This document shows, piece by piece, positions 5,898-48,821 of a stretch of DNA of 48,821 nt. The stretch comes from Bacteroidales bacterium (GTDB lineage Bacteria > Bacteroidota > Bacteroidia > Bacteroidales > Bacteroidaceae): assembly GCA_012729225.1 (NCBI GenBank), contig JAAYDO010000112.1, positions 1-48,821 of the forward strand, written 5' to 3'. Made by a program: the position numbers and the translations under genes. Position 1 is the stretch's first letter; each line of letters begins with the position of its first letter. The notes below the pieces were generated by a model. It was not told the DNA's origin and made no database searches. It worked only from the letters and a program-made list of their open reading frames with translations.

Positions 5898-6323
5898 ATG
5901 GAGGCACGATTGGACAAATGGCTCTGGGCGGCTCGCATCTTCAAGACGCGCTCAATAGCTGCTGATGCCTGTAAGAACGGACGCGTCATGATGGGTGGTG
6001 TGAAGCAGAAGGCTTCTAAGATGATTAAGGAAGGCGATGTGGTAGAGGTACGCAAACCTCCCATCACCTATAGTTTCAAAGTGTTGAAGGCTATACAGAA
6101 TAGAGTGGGGGCAAAATTGGTGCCAGAGGTGTTGGAGAATGTGACGACCAAGGAGCAGATGGAACTTCTTGAGATGAACCGTATCAGTGGATTTGTGGGC
6201 AGAGCCCGAGGCACTGGACGTCCGACCAAGAAGGATCGTCGTGATTTGGATGACTTTATCCAGCCCGCTTTCTTTGGCGACTTCGATTTTGATTGGGATG
6301 ATGACGACGAGGAGGATGAATAG
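5898..6323 (+). CDS. S4-domain RNA-binding protein (Hsp15/HslR family)
   Basis: The protein has 141 residues. The S4 domain is N-terminal (residues 1-60): RLDKWLWAARIFKTRSIA, then GRVMMGGVKQKASKMIKEGDVVEV. Relatives of E. coli Hsp15 bind 50S subunits carrying stranded nascent chains. The middle segment GRPTKKDRRDLDDF is the usual Hsp15 basic stretch. The C-terminus is extremely acidic (about 12 Asp/Glu in the last 15). Pairing with pth one base upstream fits a shared role in rescuing stalled 50S complexes. The exact substrate is inferred from the family. Confidence 0.88.
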   Translation: MEARLDKWLWAARIFKTRSIAADACKNGRVMMGGVKQKASKMIKEGDVVEVRKPPITYSFKVLKAIQNRVGAKLVPEVLENVTTKEQMELLEMNRISGFVGRARGTGRPTKKDRRDLDDFIQPAFFGDFDFDWDDDDEEDE

Positions 6324-6567
6324 TTTGTGATTTTGCTCATGTGTCGTTTTGAACATGCTTCACCTTCTCTGTTTTCAGACCGAAATTCACGGGAAATTTA
6401 TATGTAATTCACCTTCTGTGGAAGAGGGAATAAAAAAGTCTAATAAATTTTGTCGCTGAGCCATTATTCTTGGACAGCGAACGATGTTCACGTGCCTTCT
6501 AGACTTCTGTATATATTATTCATATACAACGACTTGTGCTTGTTGAAGAGATGAATGCTTATGAAAG
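6324..6567. other. Gene-free stretch after the S4 gene
   Basis: The first part of the 845-base convergent gap between the S4 gene and pepT. No coding region is convincing. A direct repeat TTCACCTTCT occurs twice (about 6360 and 6410), and TCGCTG/CAGCGA form a small inverted repeat near 6455-6481. Neither has a known role. Confidence 0.5.
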
Positions 6568-6745
6568 AAAAACGCACGCATGGTTCGATGGTCATCGAAC
6601 CATTGTTCATTGGCACTTGAAGCATTGTTCATAGACCTTTGAACCTTTGTTCGTTGGAGCATGAAGAATGCTTTGATTATTTGAGGTGTCAAGTGACATG
6701 GAATTTCCACGATTATTTCCTCTCAAACGCATGCTTTTATTTACC
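6568..6745 (-). repeat. Dispersed intergenic element, copy A
   Basis: Read on the minus strand the element begins GGTAAATAAAAGCA (6732-6745). It continues through a leader with a short hairpin (TGGAA/TTCCA), then three 22-base units at 6636-6657, 6614-6635 and 6592-6613, and ends ...TGCGTTTTT (6568-6576). Units have the form CCAACGAA, six variable bases, TTCAATGA or a close variant. It resembles the copies at 33311, 39739 and 48702. It sits between the convergent S4 and pepT genes. Confidence 0.85.
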
Positions 6746-6837
6746 CTCTTCAATAATGCTGATGGGGTGATTGCCTTGTTGGATTCACGTGGGTGCATAA
6801 TAAGCCTGTGAAGAACTGATTGCTTGTTGAATCAAAA

Positions 6838-6940
6838 AACGAAGTGTACTTCATTGGGCTTTGAAGTACACTTCGTTGGTTTTTAAGGTACACTTCGTTG
6901 AATTTTGAAGTACACTTCATTGAACTTTGAGGTACACACA
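6838..6940 (-). repeat. Tandem 22-bp array with a GTGTAC core
   Basis: About four and a half copies of a 21-23-base unit. On the minus strand the unit reads CCAACGAA, then GTGTAC, then TTCAAA plus two bases. GAAGTGTACTTC inside each unit is a near-perfect dyad. Length, flanks and orientation match the 22-base units of copy A 100 bases away, but the central six bases differ. No spacers of unique sequence separate the units, so it is not a CRISPR array. Confidence 0.85.
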
Positions 6941-32205: not shown

Positions 32206-33269
32206 CTCTCCTCATCACCTACATGCTGTTGTCGTTGATTATCTCAGCATTTTGTTCAGTGCTTGAGGCAACCATTCTTTCAACGCCCATGTCCTATGTA
32301 ACCACTCTTGAGACCCAAGGTGTCAGAGGGTGGCGGCGTCTGAAGCAGTATAAGACCAATATTGACCGTCCTATCTCTGCTATCTTAATTGTCAATACAA
32401 TAGCCAATACAGTAGGTGCTTCTCTTGTGGGTTCGCAGGCTGCAGGCTATGCCACAACCCACTATGGAGCAACAGAAGATGCCAGTTTCTTTGTTGGTGT
32501 CGTGTCTGGCTTGTTCACTTTGCTGATTCTAGTCTTTTCCGAGATTGTGCCTAAGACCATCGGATCAACCTATTGGCGCAAACTTGCTTTGCCTGCAAGC
32601 CGCATTATACATCTTTATATTATAATGACATACCTGCTCGTGATTCTGTTGGAGAAAATCACTCATGTGGTAGGTAGGTCTTCTGGCCAGGAGTCTGTCA
32701 CCCGTGATGAGGTGGCTGCAATGGTTACAGTGGGTACAGAAGAGGGTGTTCTTGAGAAGAAGGAGAACCGTATGATTCAGAACCTGCTGAAACTTGACAG
32801 TGTGGCTGCTCATGAGATCATGACGCCAAGTGTGGTGGTGGCTATGGCTGAAGAAGGTATGACATTGCAGGAGTTCTATCATGACGAGGACTTCAAGAAC
32901 TTCTCTCGTATTCCTGTTTATAAGGGAGAAGAGAGTGATTATATCACAGGCTACGTGCTTCGTCAGGAAATTCTGGAGCGTTTGGCAGAGGATAAATTTG
33001 ATGCCAAACTCGGTGATTTGGCACGCCCCATCCTGTCTTTCTCCGAAGAAGAGGATGTTTCAACCATCTGGGAAAAACTGCTTGAGAAGAAAGAGCATAT
33101 CTCTATCATCATAGATGAATATGGCACACTTCGTGGAATTGTCACGCTTGAAGACGTGATTGAGACAATGCTTGGTTTTGAGATTGTGGATGAAAAAGAC
33201 GAGGTGGTGGATATGCAGGAACTTGCCAAGGCTCAATGGAAGCAGATGCAGAAGGAACAGCATAAGTGA
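32190..33269 (+). CDS. CNNM/CorC-type membrane transporter
   Basis: 359 residues. The N-terminal DUF21/CNNM membrane domain has four hydrophobic segments, with family marks SAFCSVLEATILS near residue 20 and ILIVNTIANTVGASL. EIVPKTIGSTYWRKLALP ends the domain. A CBS pair follows at about 200-330 (MTPSVVVAMAEEGMTLQEF, FSRIPVYKGEESDYITGYV, IIDEYGTLRGIVTLEDVIE). The usual C-terminal CorC/HlyC domain is absent, only about 25 residues remaining. Relatives transport or regulate magnesium or sodium. A dispersed element (copy B) begins 40 bases after its stop. Confidence 0.9.
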   Translation: MDAQITLLITYMLLSLIISAFCSVLEATILSTPMSYVTTLETQGVRGWRRLKQYKTNIDRPISAILIVNTIANTVGASLVGSQAAGYATTHYGATEDASFFVGVVSGLFTLLILVFSEIVPKTIGSTYWRKLALPASRIIHLYIIMTYLLVILLEKITHVVGRSSGQESVTRDEVAAMVTVGTEEGVLEKKENRMIQNLLKLDSVAAHEIMTPSVVVAMAEEGMTLQEFYHDEDFKNFSRIPVYKGEESDYITGYVLRQEILERLAEDKFDAKLGDLARPILSFSEEEDVSTIWEKLLEKKEHISIIIDEYGTLRGIVTLEDVIETMLGFEIVDEKDEVVDMQELAKAQWKQMQKEQHK

Positions 33270-33310
33270 CTTGAGTCCGGTGATTTGCAATTCTCTGTAT
33301 GATTGGGGTG

Positions 33311-33509
33311 GGCGAATAAGAGGATGTGTGGGCGAGGATGAAATGGTGGGGAATTCCCTTCAAATTTCACCTCACATGATGGAAGCATTCTTCATGTTCC
33401 AACGCACAATGCTTCAATGGCAAACGAACAATTGTTCAATGACCAACGCACAATGCTTCAAGTGCCAATGCACAATTGTTCGATGACCAACGTACCATGT
33501 GTGCGTTTT
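33311..33509 (+). repeat. Dispersed intergenic element, copy B
   Basis: Between convergent CNNM and DciA-like genes. The 5' end (GCGAATAAGAGGATG) is degenerate compared with GGTAAATAAAAGCA in the other copies. The leader palindrome GGGAATTCCC occupies the hairpin place. Four 22-base units are exactly spaced at 33399, 33421, 33443 and 33465, then the ending ...TGTGCGTTTT at 33509. The second unit holds the perfect palindrome GAACAATTGTTC. Confidence 0.88.
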
Positions 33510-33832
33510 GCCCTTATCAGCATGTGGCTCTCTTATGACTTGTAACATGCTGTTTCTGAAAGGATATGGCAGTGTTGATGGACATCCCTGAACTTCTTTT
33601 TCTCTCTTGGCAAGTAGTTCATCCATATGACTTGATGAAGTTGTTTTGCCGTTCTTCCAAAGGCTGAAAAACGCAGGTGGTTTTTCAGCGGATGTGGGTG
33701 ATAATTTTAAAGTGCATGGCTGAGAAAAGAAAGGAAAGAGCATGGCCGAAAAGATGCACAAGCAGTTTGCATGCCGTTTTCCCGCATTCGGAGTTCTTTG
33801 AACTCACGTGATAGTTCGTCTGGAGGAAGGGA
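33510..33832. other. Gene-free stretch with perfect hairpins
   Basis: GCTGAAAAAC (33663-33672) pairs perfectly with GTTTTTCAGC (33680-33689), loop 7; this may end transcripts from both strands. GAGTTC/GAACTC (33791-33805) forms a second hairpin with a three-base loop 30 bases past the DciA-like stop. No gene is supported. Confidence 0.55.
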
Positions 33833-37983: not shown

Positions 37984-38739
37984 ATGAATAACCTGCTCAC
38001 TATATTAGGTCCTACGGCGTGTGGCAAGACTCGTTTTGCAGCCCAGTTAGCCTATGAGATGGATGCTGAGATTATCAGTGCGGATAGCCGTCAGGTCTAT
38101 CGTGGCATGGACATAGGTACGGGCAAGGATTTGGCAGACTATCATGTGAAGGACAAGGATATTCCTTATCATTTGATAGACGTTGCTGATGCGGGCACTC
38201 GCTATAATGTGTATGAGTGGCAGAGAGGTTTTCTTGATGCTTATGCCGACATCACGAGTAGGGGCAGAACGCCTATCCTTTGTGGTGGAACAGGCATGTA
38301 TATAGAAAGTGTGATTAAGGGGTATGAGTTTGACGGGCGTGCTTTTCCGCCTTTCCGCTCCTTGATTATTGGTCTTGACATAGATCGGGAAGAGCGTAGA
38401 GAGAAAATCAGCCGCCGGCTTCGTGCTCGTTTGGACGAGGGAATGGTGGAGGAAGTCAAGGGGCTTATAGATAGGGGAGTGTCCACAGAGAGGCTCATCC
38501 GCTATGGCTTGGAGTATAAATACCTCACCCTCTATCTTATGGGTGAGTTGAAATATGAAGAGATGGTGTCCCTTCTGGAGATAGCCATCCATCAGTTTGC
38601 CAAGCGTCAGATGACGTGGTTCCGTGGCATGGAGGAGCGTCGAGGCATTCAAATCCATTGGATGAGTGTGGCGATGCCCGTGGAGGAGCGTATTGAACAA
38701 GTGAAAGAATTATGGCAGAAGCAAATCGTATTGGAATAA
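37984..38739 (+). CDS. Short MiaA-like tRNA dimethylallyltransferase
   Basis: MiaA adds an isopentenyl group to A37 of tRNAs reading UNN codons. From the ATG at 37984 this protein has 251 residues, against about 300-316 usual. Present are the P-loop GPTACGKT, SADSRQVYRGMDIGTGK, GGTGMYIESVIKGYEF and the end FAKRQMTWFRGMEERRG. Missing is the middle insert that normally runs from LPxADxxxR through IHPNDxQRxxRALEV; only about 12 residues bridge the gap. The lost part is the helical insert that grips tRNA. It may be a second, specialised paralogue or act on another substrate. An upstream ATG at 37945 is less likely. Confidence 0.8.
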   Translation: MNNLLTILGPTACGKTRFAAQLAYEMDAEIISADSRQVYRGMDIGTGKDLADYHVKDKDIPYHLIDVADAGTRYNVYEWQRGFLDAYADITSRGRTPILCGGTGMYIESVIKGYEFDGRAFPPFRSLIIGLDIDREERREKISRRLRARLDEGMVEEVKGLIDRGVSTERLIRYGLEYKYLTLYLMGELKYEEMVSLLEIAIHQFAKRQMTWFRGMEERRGIQIHWMSVAMPVEERIEQVKELWQKQIVLE

Positions 38740-39656
38740 TATATAATCCTCATTCAGGTTTTGACCATTCGCAAAAGCGATGGGAACTGATTCGAAAATA
38801 CATGGAGCAAAAGGGAGTGCAGTATGACTTCCTTCAGTCAGAGTCGCCTGAGTCAGTGAGCCGTTTGGCTAAGATGATGTGCGAAAATGGTTATCACACC
38901 ATTGTGGTTGTGGGAGGAGATGGCTCTCTCAACCGTACTGTCAATGCTGTGATGGAGCATGAGGAGATGCTTCCTGAAGACTTTGCCCTTGCTGTGATTC
39001 CTAATGGCATTGGCAATGATTTTGCCCATTTTTGGGGACTCTCCGTTGATGATTACAAACAAGCCATTGATGGTATTATAGCTCATAATGTGAGAAGGAT
39101 TGATGTGGGATGTTGCACTTACCAGGACGACAAGATTCCCCAGCGTCGTTACTTCTTGAACTGCATCAATATAGGCTTGGGGGCTCGTGTGATAAAGAAT
39201 ACCAATGAGGCGACTCAAATAACAGGTTCTCGTCGCCTATCTGTCATTCCTGCCTTGACAAGCCGCGTGTTTGAGCGCATGCAGTATCATCTTTCGCTGA
39301 AGATAGATACGGAAGAAATATCCGACACCTTCATGTCTGTATGTATAGGCAATTGCCATGGCTATGGACAAACTCCCAATGCTGTGCCATATAATGGACT
39401 TCTGGATATATCTCTTATCACTCGTCCTCGTTGGTGGCAATTGTTTGAGGGTTTTTGGCTATTGGGAAAAGGACGTTTCCTTAACTATAAAAATGTGCAC
39501 CCTTACCGTGCCCGAAAAGTAAAGATCACTGATGTGGACAAGGCTTTGGTGTCGCTTGATGGTGTGGTATTGCGCTCTAAGAATCCAGAGCCTATGCGAG
39601 TGGAAATCAAGCAAGATGCACTTAATTTCATAGTACCAGTAGTGCATCCGTTTTAG
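38712..39656 (+). CDS. Diacylglycerol/lipid kinase family protein
   Basis: A cytosolic kinase of 314 residues in the DagK/YegS/sphingosine kinase family. The nucleotide loop GGDGS is at 68-72, preceded by IIYNPHSG at the N-terminus. IPNGIGNDFAHFWGL is the family's second motif (usually PxGTxNDfAr), and SVCIGNCHGYGQTPNAVPYNG the third. It overlaps the MiaA-like gene by 28 bases, so the two are co-translated. Diacylglycerol as substrate is probable, not shown. Confidence 0.88.
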   Translation: MAEANRIGIIYNPHSGFDHSQKRWELIRKYMEQKGVQYDFLQSESPESVSRLAKMMCENGYHTIVVVGGDGSLNRTVNAVMEHEEMLPEDFALAVIPNGIGNDFAHFWGLSVDDYKQAIDGIIAHNVRRIDVGCCTYQDDKIPQRRYFLNCINIGLGARVIKNTNEATQITGSRRLSVIPALTSRVFERMQYHLSLKIDTEEISDTFMSVCIGNCHGYGQTPNAVPYNGLLDISLITRPRWWQLFEGFWLLGKGRFLNYKNVHPYRARKVKITDVDKALVSLDGVVLRSKNPEPMRVEIKQDALNFIVPVVHPF

Positions 39657-39738
39657 AACATGGGTTCAATAAGTTCACATGGAATAATAAACGTGGGTTG
39701 GAAGAATTTACCACTCCCTTCCTCTATTCTAGGGAGAG

Positions 39739-39893
39739 GGTAAATAAAAGCACATGTGCGCAAGGATAAAATGGCAGGGGAATCCTGCCATTTTGCATCT
39801 CGCATGCCCGAAGTGTTCTTCATGCCTCAACGAACCATTGTTCAATGGCCTACGAACAATGGTGTGATGACCAACGAACAATGGTGCGTTTTT
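39739..39893 (+). repeat. Dispersed intergenic element, copy C
   Basis: Between the convergent lipid kinase and Crp/Fnr genes. It starts GGTAAATAAAAGCA and has a perfect 11-base-pair leader hairpin, AAAATGGCAGG (39768-39778) with CCTGCCATTTT (39784-39794). Two full 22-base units follow at 39827 and 39849, then a final partial unit at 39871 ending TGCGTTTTT. Confidence 0.9.
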
Positions 39894-40202
39894 GACCTCA
39901 CAGGCATGGTGCTCTGTGGTCTCTATAAATCGTTGTGCTTGAAGAAGATATGTGGATTATTGGATGCAGGGATAACATCGCTCGCATTCTTGCAAGAGTC
40001 GTCATACGACAAAATGTGCCATCATCTTTTCTTCTTTCTTGCACTGTAGGCAAATACCCTTTGAATTATTCATGATTTTGGCAAAAAATAAAAGGGAAAA
40101 GGTATGATTGAAAAGATACATCAACCATCGAAGCCTACTTTTTTATCTTCAGAATTTGTCTGACTCACGTTGAAAAGGGGAAGCGAATGGATAAAGGTCT
40201 CC
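39894..40202. other. Gene-free stretch after copy C
   Basis: The first 25 bases (to GGCATGGTGCTCT) resemble the sequence after copy B (AGCATGTGGCTCT), so the element may reach about 39915. The rest holds no supported gene. GGATAA/TTATCC (40189-40208) is a hairpin overlapping the stop of the Crp/Fnr gene. Confidence 0.45.
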
Positions 40203-40907
40203 TTATCCTATTTTGTTGATTCTTTCCAGATTATCTCCATCAATGATTTTGATTTTCTTTCCGTCGATGGCAATAATCTTTTCTTGTGCAAAGGCAGAGA
40301 GGGTGCGGATAGCATTGGATGTGGTCATGTTCGACATGTTGGCGAGGTCTTCTCTGGAGAGATAGATGGACAACGTTGCTCCGTCTTCTTCCAGACCGTA
40401 GTTGTCTCGCAAGAAGATGAGTGATTCAGCCAAGCGTCCACGTATGTGCTTTTGAGTGAGGTTCACCGTGCGCTGGTCTGATCTCGCCACTTCTATAGCC
40501 AGTTGCCGAATGAAGAAAAGAGCCAGCTGGTTGTTTTTCATCATCCATCTTTCCAGTATCTCCACGGGAATGAGACAAACGGTGCTGGCTTCAAATGCAG
40601 CGGCAGAGGTCACATAATTTTGATTGGCAAAATAAGCACGATAGCCAAAGTATTCCACAGGCTTGATCACACGTACAATCTGTGTTCTTCCTCCAATGCC
40701 GTCTTTATAGACCTTGACCTTTCCGCTGATGAGGCAATGAAACATCTCAGGCACTTCACCTTCCCGATAAAGTGTCTCGTTCTTCTTGAAATGCTGAATG
40801 TAGAGATTGTCCTTCAGTTCCTCTTGCTGCTCGGGGGTGAGCATCTGCATGATATCCTTTAGGCTGTTCACAGCATTGGTCAGCACAGCCGAATCTTTTT
40901 TTCTCAT
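40203..40907 (-). CDS. Crp/Fnr-family transcription regulator
   Basis: 234 residues from the ATG at 40907. The cyclic-nucleotide-binding-like beta roll spans about 35-150 (FKKNETLYREGEVPEMFHCL, ISGKVKVYKDG), with no cysteine cluster for an Fe-S centre. The winged helix is at about 170-225 (YLSREDLANMSNMTTSNAIRTLSAF). The frame is open to an ATG at 40928, but the -7 box of the promoter ends one base before that codon, so transcription probably starts after it. Its promoter is back-to-back with that of the glycogen operon. The ligand is unknown. Confidence 0.88.
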   Translation of the reverse strand: MRKKDSAVLTNAVNSLKDIMQMLTPEQQEELKDNLYIQHFKKNETLYREGEVPEMFHCLISGKVKVYKDGIGGRTQIVRVIKPVEYFGYRAYFANQNYVTSAAAFEASTVCLIPVEILERWMMKNNQLALFFIRQLAIEVARSDQRTVNLTQKHIRGRLAESLIFLRDNYGLEEDGATLSIYLSREDLANMSNMTTSNAIRTLSAFAQEKIIAIDGKKIKIIDGDNLERINKIG

Positions 40908-40929
40908 TGCTTCAAAAGCTTTTGTCATG

Positions 40930-45939: not shown

Positions 45940-46123
45940 TGGAATATCTCTATTAATGTGAGTATGATGGATTCAGATGATGAAACAGTTGCTTTCAATA
46001 GTTGGTAACTTTCAATCACATCTCATATCCGCAACCTCTACGAGCAAGAAGATTGTTGTGCCATAAAGAGGAGAAAGCGAATTCATGCCTCGAAATCTTG
46101 AAATGTTTTTATAACAACAAAAG
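45940..46123. other. Gene-free stretch between convergent genes
   Basis: About 180 bases between the two terminators with no gene, repeat or clear regulatory site. The whole gap from 45833 to 46198 is accounted for by the terminators at each side. Confidence 0.5.
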
Positions 46124-48551: not shown

Positions 48552-48701
48552 TTTGCAAACGATAAAGATGCTTGTTACAGTAGTAAAAGCGGAAAAATAA
48601 AGGAAAACGACCTGTGGTGCATTGTGATTGAAGACTGCTACATGTGTAAATAATGTAAGTTCGGATGAATTCATCACACCTTATCTGATATGATTTAGAA
48701 A

Positions 48702-48821
48702 GGTAAATAAAAGCAGGTGCGTATGAGGATGAAATAGAGGGATTTACCGACCATTTGACATGTCGCTTGATTGAGGAATTTCTCATGCTCCAACGAACAA
48801 TGTTGCGATGACCAACGAACA
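48702..48821 (+). repeat. Dispersed intergenic element, copy D (cut by window end)
   Basis: Begins GGTAAATAAAAGCA, followed by GTGCGTATGAGGATGAAAT as in copy B. The first 22-base unit lies near the window end and the second is truncated. It lies upstream of the GH2 gene; the gene on its other side is outside the window. Confidence 0.85.

Follow-up and report, generated by a model that had tools for sequence, protein, structure and literature searches.

Intergenic repeats in the 48,821-nucleotide contig analysed here (the window) are identified as copies of a MITE-type non-autonomous transposon with IS982-type ends, which holds a minisatellite of 22-nt units and is dispersed through the genome of one uncultured gut bacterium (G000; congeners are numbered likewise). 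The explanation regarded as very probable is that transposases of the IS982 family (IS195-like), recognising its common ends, ACGTGAGTTCGA, would move this gene-less MITE of ~500 bp in trans, that it would have spread as a finished module, minisatellite included, to about 130 places, and that copies would survive most often at convergent-gene junctions, where harm is least. The array has also diverged less than the transposon that carries it, which, as read from sequence, hints that the array itself may have a function.

Extent, ends and insertion of the element

A first-pass annotation of the window had described four copies (A-D) built to a shared plan; their positions and plan were confirmed, and its picture of a dispersed, non-coding family is supported. 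The boundaries it drew were too narrow. When copies were aligned with 200-300 bp of flank, similarity extended both ways and stopped at terminal inverted repeats (TIRs), AACGTGAGTTCGACGAA on the left and its complement on the right; copy C begins 48 nt earlier and finishes 277 nt later than had been proposed. The 14-base sequence GGTAAATAAAAGCA, taken for the start, matches exactly in three copies (A, C and D) and has decayed in the fourth (B) as reported, but is internal, and the tail sequence taken for the end, which reads TGCGTTTTT in A and C and TGCGTTTTG in B, does not end the element; the similarity noticed ~20 bases past B and C was only the first ~20 bases of the tail. TRF recovers the 22-nt tandem arrays at 6597-6657, 33399-33499 and 39845-39886. 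The features of the window are as follows.

39691..40170, plus strand: copy C, whole element, 480 bp (profile 2-502 of 502, 484 bits)
39691-39706 (plus) and 40155-40170 (minus): TIR pattern matches of copy C, two mismatches each
39691..39706, plus strand: left terminal inverted repeat of copy C, 3 mismatches to ACGTGAGTTCGACGAA
39707..39809, plus strand: leader of copy C, with hairpin AAAATGGCAGG-loop-CCTGCCATTTT at about 39768-39795
39810..39893, plus strand: array of copy C, 12-nt imperfect inverted repeats and 10-nt spacers, one unit below the modal form
39894..40154, plus strand: tail of copy C
40155..40170, minus strand: right terminal inverted repeat of copy C, 3 mismatches
38712-39656 (plus) and 40203-40928 (minus): neighbours of copy C, a lipid kinase gene and a CRP/FNR-type regulator gene (names from NCBIfam)
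33269..33809, plus strand: copy B, whole element, left end weak (5/16 mismatches), right TIR 33794-33809
6312..6792, minus strand: copy A, left TIR near 6792 (5 mismatches), right TIR not recognisable; its tail reaches the end of gene 5898-6323
48654..48821, plus strand: copy D, cut by the contig end inside the array
45957..46024, minus strand: right-end fragment of a fifth copy (model 431-501, E 5e-7)

The element is ~480-540 bp long: 15 of 17 near-full copies measure 479-543 bp and the other two 458 and 324 bp. This lies within the 50-1000 bp of bacterial MITEs, which are likewise non-coding, as the element is according to the ORF list of the window. Both ends are within 5/16 mismatches of the TIR in 8/17 near-full copies, and at least one end has 6 or more mismatches in the remaining nine. 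Target duplications are present in a minority, two copies having perfect ones (TGTCTTA on both sides of C202:8752, 7/7; TAAACATA on both sides of C212:38275, 8/8), two near-perfect ones (6/7 and 5/6) and 13 none.

Empty sites are found in relatives. The convergent kinase and CRP-FNR pair that flanks copy C is conserved across the genus, with a match in 41/44 congeners, and only 14-47 bp separate the flanking-gene matches in ten of them (G003, G016, G010, G017, G057, G024, G056, G006, G022 and G049) compared with ~560 in G000; these ten are the shortest gaps with both matches reaching the gene ends, the rest being longer, partly from matches that stop short (251 bp in G014). Among named relatives (uncultured Bacteroidaceae, Prevotellaceae and Bacteroidales records, many from ruminants) the convergent pair is retained at 35/44 loci, and the gap is at most 97 bp in 31/35 compared with 546 in G000, five of the 35 values being negative (overlaps, or stops placed wrongly). 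The four longer gaps (171, 224, 228 and 672 bp) contain no leader or tail match, one of them including masked N. Similarly, at the Hsp15/PepT junction, which holds copy A, the matches are 28-323 bp apart in 16 congeners and ~850 bp apart in G000. Two further observations were made at the kinase locus. In L220, the kinase and CRP genes are separated by extra sequence that resembles, by eye, a gene for a small nucleotidyltransferase; a T-rich run there is preceded by a hairpin whose two arms are TIR-like (GCGTGAGTTCAAC...GTTGAACTCACGC). A relative of the Bacteroidales lipid kinase, at 59% identity, is present in L226; this record bears the label Roseburia sp. and is perhaps a mislabelled MAG.

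The TIR pattern (up to 2 mismatches) occurs at 126 places in the genome, against 24 for a reversed control. Two of the sequences with a TIR at both ends are broken IS copies, at C183:2340-2912 and C131:207-926, whose coding pieces match NF033520 (transpos_IS982) with E 1.5e-14 and 2e-10, under the curated cut-off. A partner IS with the same ends is present in the genome, with only broken transposase genes found, and the search for an intact IS982 gene returned three fragments, all under that cut-off. Many TIR matches, ~110 bp short of a contig end, run by eye into what look like the starts or ends of an IS, so intact copies may be unassembled. When the tail half of the element was compared with the IS, the common stretch was just 24-31 nt, at the end, and the shared interior of an IS982-type MITE arising by deletion was not seen there, which does not bear out descent by deletion from this IS. 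By eye, loci L034 and L050 possibly belong to another MITE family with the same TIR and a different interior.

According to a review, IS982-family ends begin with AC, and the target duplications of IS195 and IS1187 are 8 and 7 bp (PMC7335449). IS195 is the former ISPg3 (PMC5771137), whose TIR differs from that of the element at one of 12 positions (PMC4596501, Table 2); the family filing conflicts, since ISPg3 is placed under IS5 in PMC4596501 and IS195 under IS982 in PMC7335449. IS195 and IS1187 are autonomous ~1-kb insertion sequences with a transposase, whereas the element carries no gene. We infer that an IS982 transposase would move the element.

Copy number, host range and genomic position

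A profile scan of this genome and its relatives had been suggested in the first-pass annotation, together with an estimate of one copy per 12 kb. Queried with copy C, blastn returned 95 aligned pieces (E up to 10), with 40 of 172 candidates scored, and a profile built from nine full copies, run over 227,623 fetched bases, found 57 loci. The leader was also modelled, by sequence only, on 38 copies that include the four of the window; this model gave 141 matches at E up to 0.01 among 150 scored candidates, 111 of them below 1e-6; without 11 antisense echoes and 2 split matches, these represent 128 distinct places. The family therefore has more than 100 dispersed copies and is not a matter of a few, but its density is one per ~22 kb of the 2.89-Mb assembly (88.8% complete). 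The window copies score 74.6-101.5 bits, which holds by construction because all four are in the model, and the next sense-strand match in the window has E 0.36. In 20 contigs picked by number alone (130,640 bases, 18,876 masked N) the profile finds three copies.

Meanwhile, the leader model yielded only five marginal matches (E 0.002-0.007) and nothing convincing in 44 congeners, one per species, under stricter filters that lose weak matches, and the family appears confined to this genome. Two blastn searches of the congeners agree, except for array-only matches in G047 and flank matches in G014 and G022. An exact scan of the contigs of 84,980 species with one degenerate two-unit pattern gave no hit (the genome of origin was possibly left out), nor did a scan of viral contigs with another array pattern. 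Searches of the open-licence PMC literature yielded no description of an element like this from Prevotella or its relatives.

Copies favour junctions between convergent genes. Gene context was called with a simple codon score rather than a gene finder for 49 profile loci (8/57, at or below 90 bits, were dropped), of which 17 lacked a gene call on one side and stayed unclassed. The 32 classed copies comprise 17 between convergent genes, 13 between tandem and 2 between divergent genes, compared with 12, 85 and 13 among 110 background junctions that include the copy-bearing ones of the window (17/32 vs 12/110 convergent, Fisher p=1.6e-6).

Such a preference would also suit a family of RNAs, regulatory or structural, that does not move, such as bidirectional terminators at convergent ends, and some folding is present: it is better than in shuffles for the leader hairpin and for most arrays, moderately so for the arrays (z -1.2 to -3.9) and with z -2.3 on the plus and -4.1 on the minus strand for the hairpin region of copy C (39720-39800). 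Against this, RNAalifold gave no consensus structure for the copies, covariation in the leader hairpin is weak (29 both-side cells vs 20.7 +/- 3.7 in shuffles, 6/500 of which reach 29) and between the arms of array units none was found, a simple scan of copy C gave no terminator-like or promoter-like site, and the sole Rfam match above gathering score in the window is a tRNA. The TIRs, the two perfect target duplications and the empty sites mark insertion, and an RNA family in place of a transposon is considered very unlikely.

The distinction drawn earlier from REP and CRISPR designs also stands. Units abut without CRISPR-type spacers, and array lengths change in 22-nt steps. REP/BIME-type palindromes moved by a RAYT (Y1 transposase) would share with the element its palindrome-like units, its intergenic position and its confinement to one species among those searched, but no Y1_Tnp match was found in the 88.8% complete G000 assembly, and the Y1 gene of G019, although only 1.3 kb away from an array, has other repeats on its two sides (by eye). 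Y1 elements are not known to have TIRs or target duplications, and a RAYT origin was rejected as scarcely credible.

Array structure and divergence

Each unit of the array is a 12-nt imperfect inverted repeat, GAACAATGGTTC, followed by a 10-nt spacer. A conserved GAAGCATTCTTC precedes the array in phase and looks like a 'unit 0', followed in the modal form by four units. Leader and tail anchors lie 58/59, 80/81, 102/103 or 124 apart in every one of the 39 copies that could be measured (10/49 arrays were not measurable), and with 40 further copies 74/79 arrays fall on 22-nt steps, give or take one base, the five off-phase lengths being read as a misplaced anchor. Among 301 inner units, a count that includes those five arrays, 134 have the form GAA-N6-TTC and 60 GAAC-N4-GTTC, and in units 1-3 the values for the core positions GAACAAT..T.C range from 0.80 to 1.0. 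GAAC-N4-GTTC presumably resembles the LexA/DinR box of Gram-positive bacteria. A second 22-nt array, GAAGTACACTTCATTGAACTTT x 4.4, lies at 6841-6937 in the window, ~50 bp outside copy A; it has the GAA-N6-TTC design in common with the element and a different sequence, and folds strongly on both strands (z -4.9 and -7.0).

Divergence was assessed in 40 copies hand-picked from the leader-model list of 128 places, none of which had entered the profile or the consensus, although a few were also matched by the tail query or by the copy A region; since they were drawn from the leader list, selection of copies by their array was avoided. Mean identity to the earlier consensus is 0.853 for the array, compared with 0.665 for the leader, 0.663-0.727 for the tail and ~0.75 for the ends, and the array is nearer the consensus than the leader in 40/40 copies and than the first part of the tail in 34/34. 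Aligner bias was rejected as the source of this difference: simulated copies give 0.68-0.71 for the array and 0.67-0.71 for the leader, and in simulated neutral copies at 30-34% divergence the two agree within 0.02. Homogenisation within arrays was likewise rejected, since in 41 four-unit arrays different units are no more alike within a copy (0.696) than across copies (0.692), while units at the same position across copies reach 0.768.

Comparison of 37 well-covered copies (666 pairs) showed hardly any correlation between array and flank identity (0.16). Old pairs, with flanks at 0.45-0.6, still have arrays at 0.76-0.80. In the 15 youngest pairs (flanks 0.75-0.9) the array is about equal, at 0.81-0.84, with no gap, and this equality does not bear out constraint on each copy after insertion. 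The array looks constrained or exchanged between copies; constraint in the source element, constraint after insertion and exchange between dispersed copies may each explain it. Mean pairwise flank identity among the 37 copies is 0.578, and this high divergence, in an element found in none of the 44 congeners, is a counterpoint to the MITE explanation.

Two accounts of why the array has changed less were weighed, both conditional on what would have acted on it. Plasmid iterons offer a comparison, being likewise tandem ~22-bp protein sites on one helical face if the array binds a protein; one array of the element, queried with blastn, had no match among 72,556 plasmid records and none among phages. 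The array could be a phased protein-binding array, with 12-bp inverted sites near GAAC-N4-GTTC two helical turns apart, that was selected after insertion, such that the MITE would now be a host feature, for example a barrier or a nucleoid-protein site at gene ends. The excess of array identity over leader and first tail part, its absence from the neutral simulation, the lack of homogenisation, the conserved core of units 1-3 and the standalone 21-nt arrays with the same core in G019 and G047 would all agree with binding. However, array and flanks are alike in the youngest pairs, unit turnover or exchange between copies could mimic constraint, unit arms do not covary, the putative binder corresponds to no known protein, and the G019 and G047 arrays were sought for their likeness. 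A selected binding array is accordingly rated as rather unlikely, and its fuller version, in which a putative dimeric DNA-binding protein would have its sites seeded by the MITE at about 130 places of one species, preferentially gene ends, with each array selected while the rest of the transposon decays, as more doubtful still.

Alternatively, the constraint could act on the transposon, the array being required for transposition, as sites for the transposase or a host factor, such that copies lacking it would not spread, and passive afterwards. All 40 copies from the leader list reach into the array, and in the youngest pairs array and flanks diverge about equally; BrickBuilt of Porphyromonas gingivalis, too, has no leader-to-tail form lacking repeats (PMC4596501). 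Against this, the 0.76-0.80 identity of the array in old pairs exceeds what decay after insertion would leave of a passive sequence, unless the flanks of the source elements had already diverged greatly. A transposition requirement is rated as possible, though less likely than not. Whichever of these would account for the array, an IS982-type MITE with an internal minisatellite remains the preferred explanation of the family.

Related repeats and known systems

Arrays of similar units occur elsewhere in the genus. Standalone arrays with core GAACAATTATTC / GAACAATTGTTC and period 21, lacking leader and tail, were found in G019 and G047 by a search for likeness to the array of the element, some of them directly after stop codons; with looser arrays in G048 and G050 the total is 4/45 genomes, and a reversed-pattern control gave 0. 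The standalone arrays consist of roughly four palindrome-like units of 21 nt, and in many cases a stop codon stands immediately before them (L099, L103, L106, L108, L109, L111, L112 and L119 in G019; L082 and L084 in G047; partly by eye). In an unbiased sample of G000, tandem repeats of period at least 10 fall on multiples of 11 in 18/22 rows, or 10/14 without MITE arrays, whereas those of the ten-congener sample (273,716 bases, 12,149 masked N; L279-L298) mostly have period 21-24 with a peak at 23 (17/32 rows). Since standalone arrays and repeats with a period of ~22 nt occur across congeners, the MITE may have captured its array from a class of repeats that spans the genus. The periods seen in G000 are 11, 22, 33, 44 and 66 (TRF score at least 50; L259-L278 and the window), and the clustering in the genus perhaps reflects two helical turns; 50 kb of E. 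coli held only two tandem repeats, of periods 96 and 303. In the Hsp15/PepT region, different 22-23-nt arrays are present by species in G054, G003, G007, G045 and G059 (L189, L185, L187, L171 and L173), some being near-perfect palindromes, e.g. AGTACCTCCTAGGAGGTACTGG.

The first-pass annotation had taken the design as matching none known, and in this it was mistaken: a MITE-type transposon with an internal minisatellite is already described as BrickBuilt in P. gingivalis (PMC4596501). BrickBuilt has a leader, a tandem minisatellite and a tail, is intergenic and host-restricted, and is without transposase remnant, all as in the element, the comparison being one of plan and not of DNA. It differs in its 23-nt units, in its TIR (GAGACCTTTGCA, nearest to ISPg1/ISPg9, which are filed under IS5) and in copy number, with 19 copies in ATCC 33277 compared with ~130 here. 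Two other P. gingivalis elements in Table 2 of the same paper match the ends instead: MITE239 has the same left end as the element and MITE700 has the right end TCGAACTCACGT, but both are said there not to encompass mini- or microsatellites. MITECca01 of Cardinium cOegib also has IS982-family ends, high copy number (169), mostly intergenic positions and lineage-specific distribution, but is ~240 bp long and derived from ISCca4, and the word 'tandem' is absent from the text (PMC9769881). BrickBuilt and the Cardinium IS982-type MITE are the closest known kinds; the plan is known from BrickBuilt, and what is new is its IS982-type ends and an array that diverges less than its carrier.

The data indicate that the BrickBuilt plan is not a one-species oddity, as it is found here on IS982-type ends, in a different lineage of Bacteroidales and in far more copies. 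Copies can break assemblies, and the contig of the window ends inside one. Furthermore, the genome offers about 130 natural replicates for asking why a minisatellite rides inside a MITE, and the lower divergence of the array, whose reason we can so far only infer, can be examined in them as a binding array, a transposition requirement or an effect of recombination.
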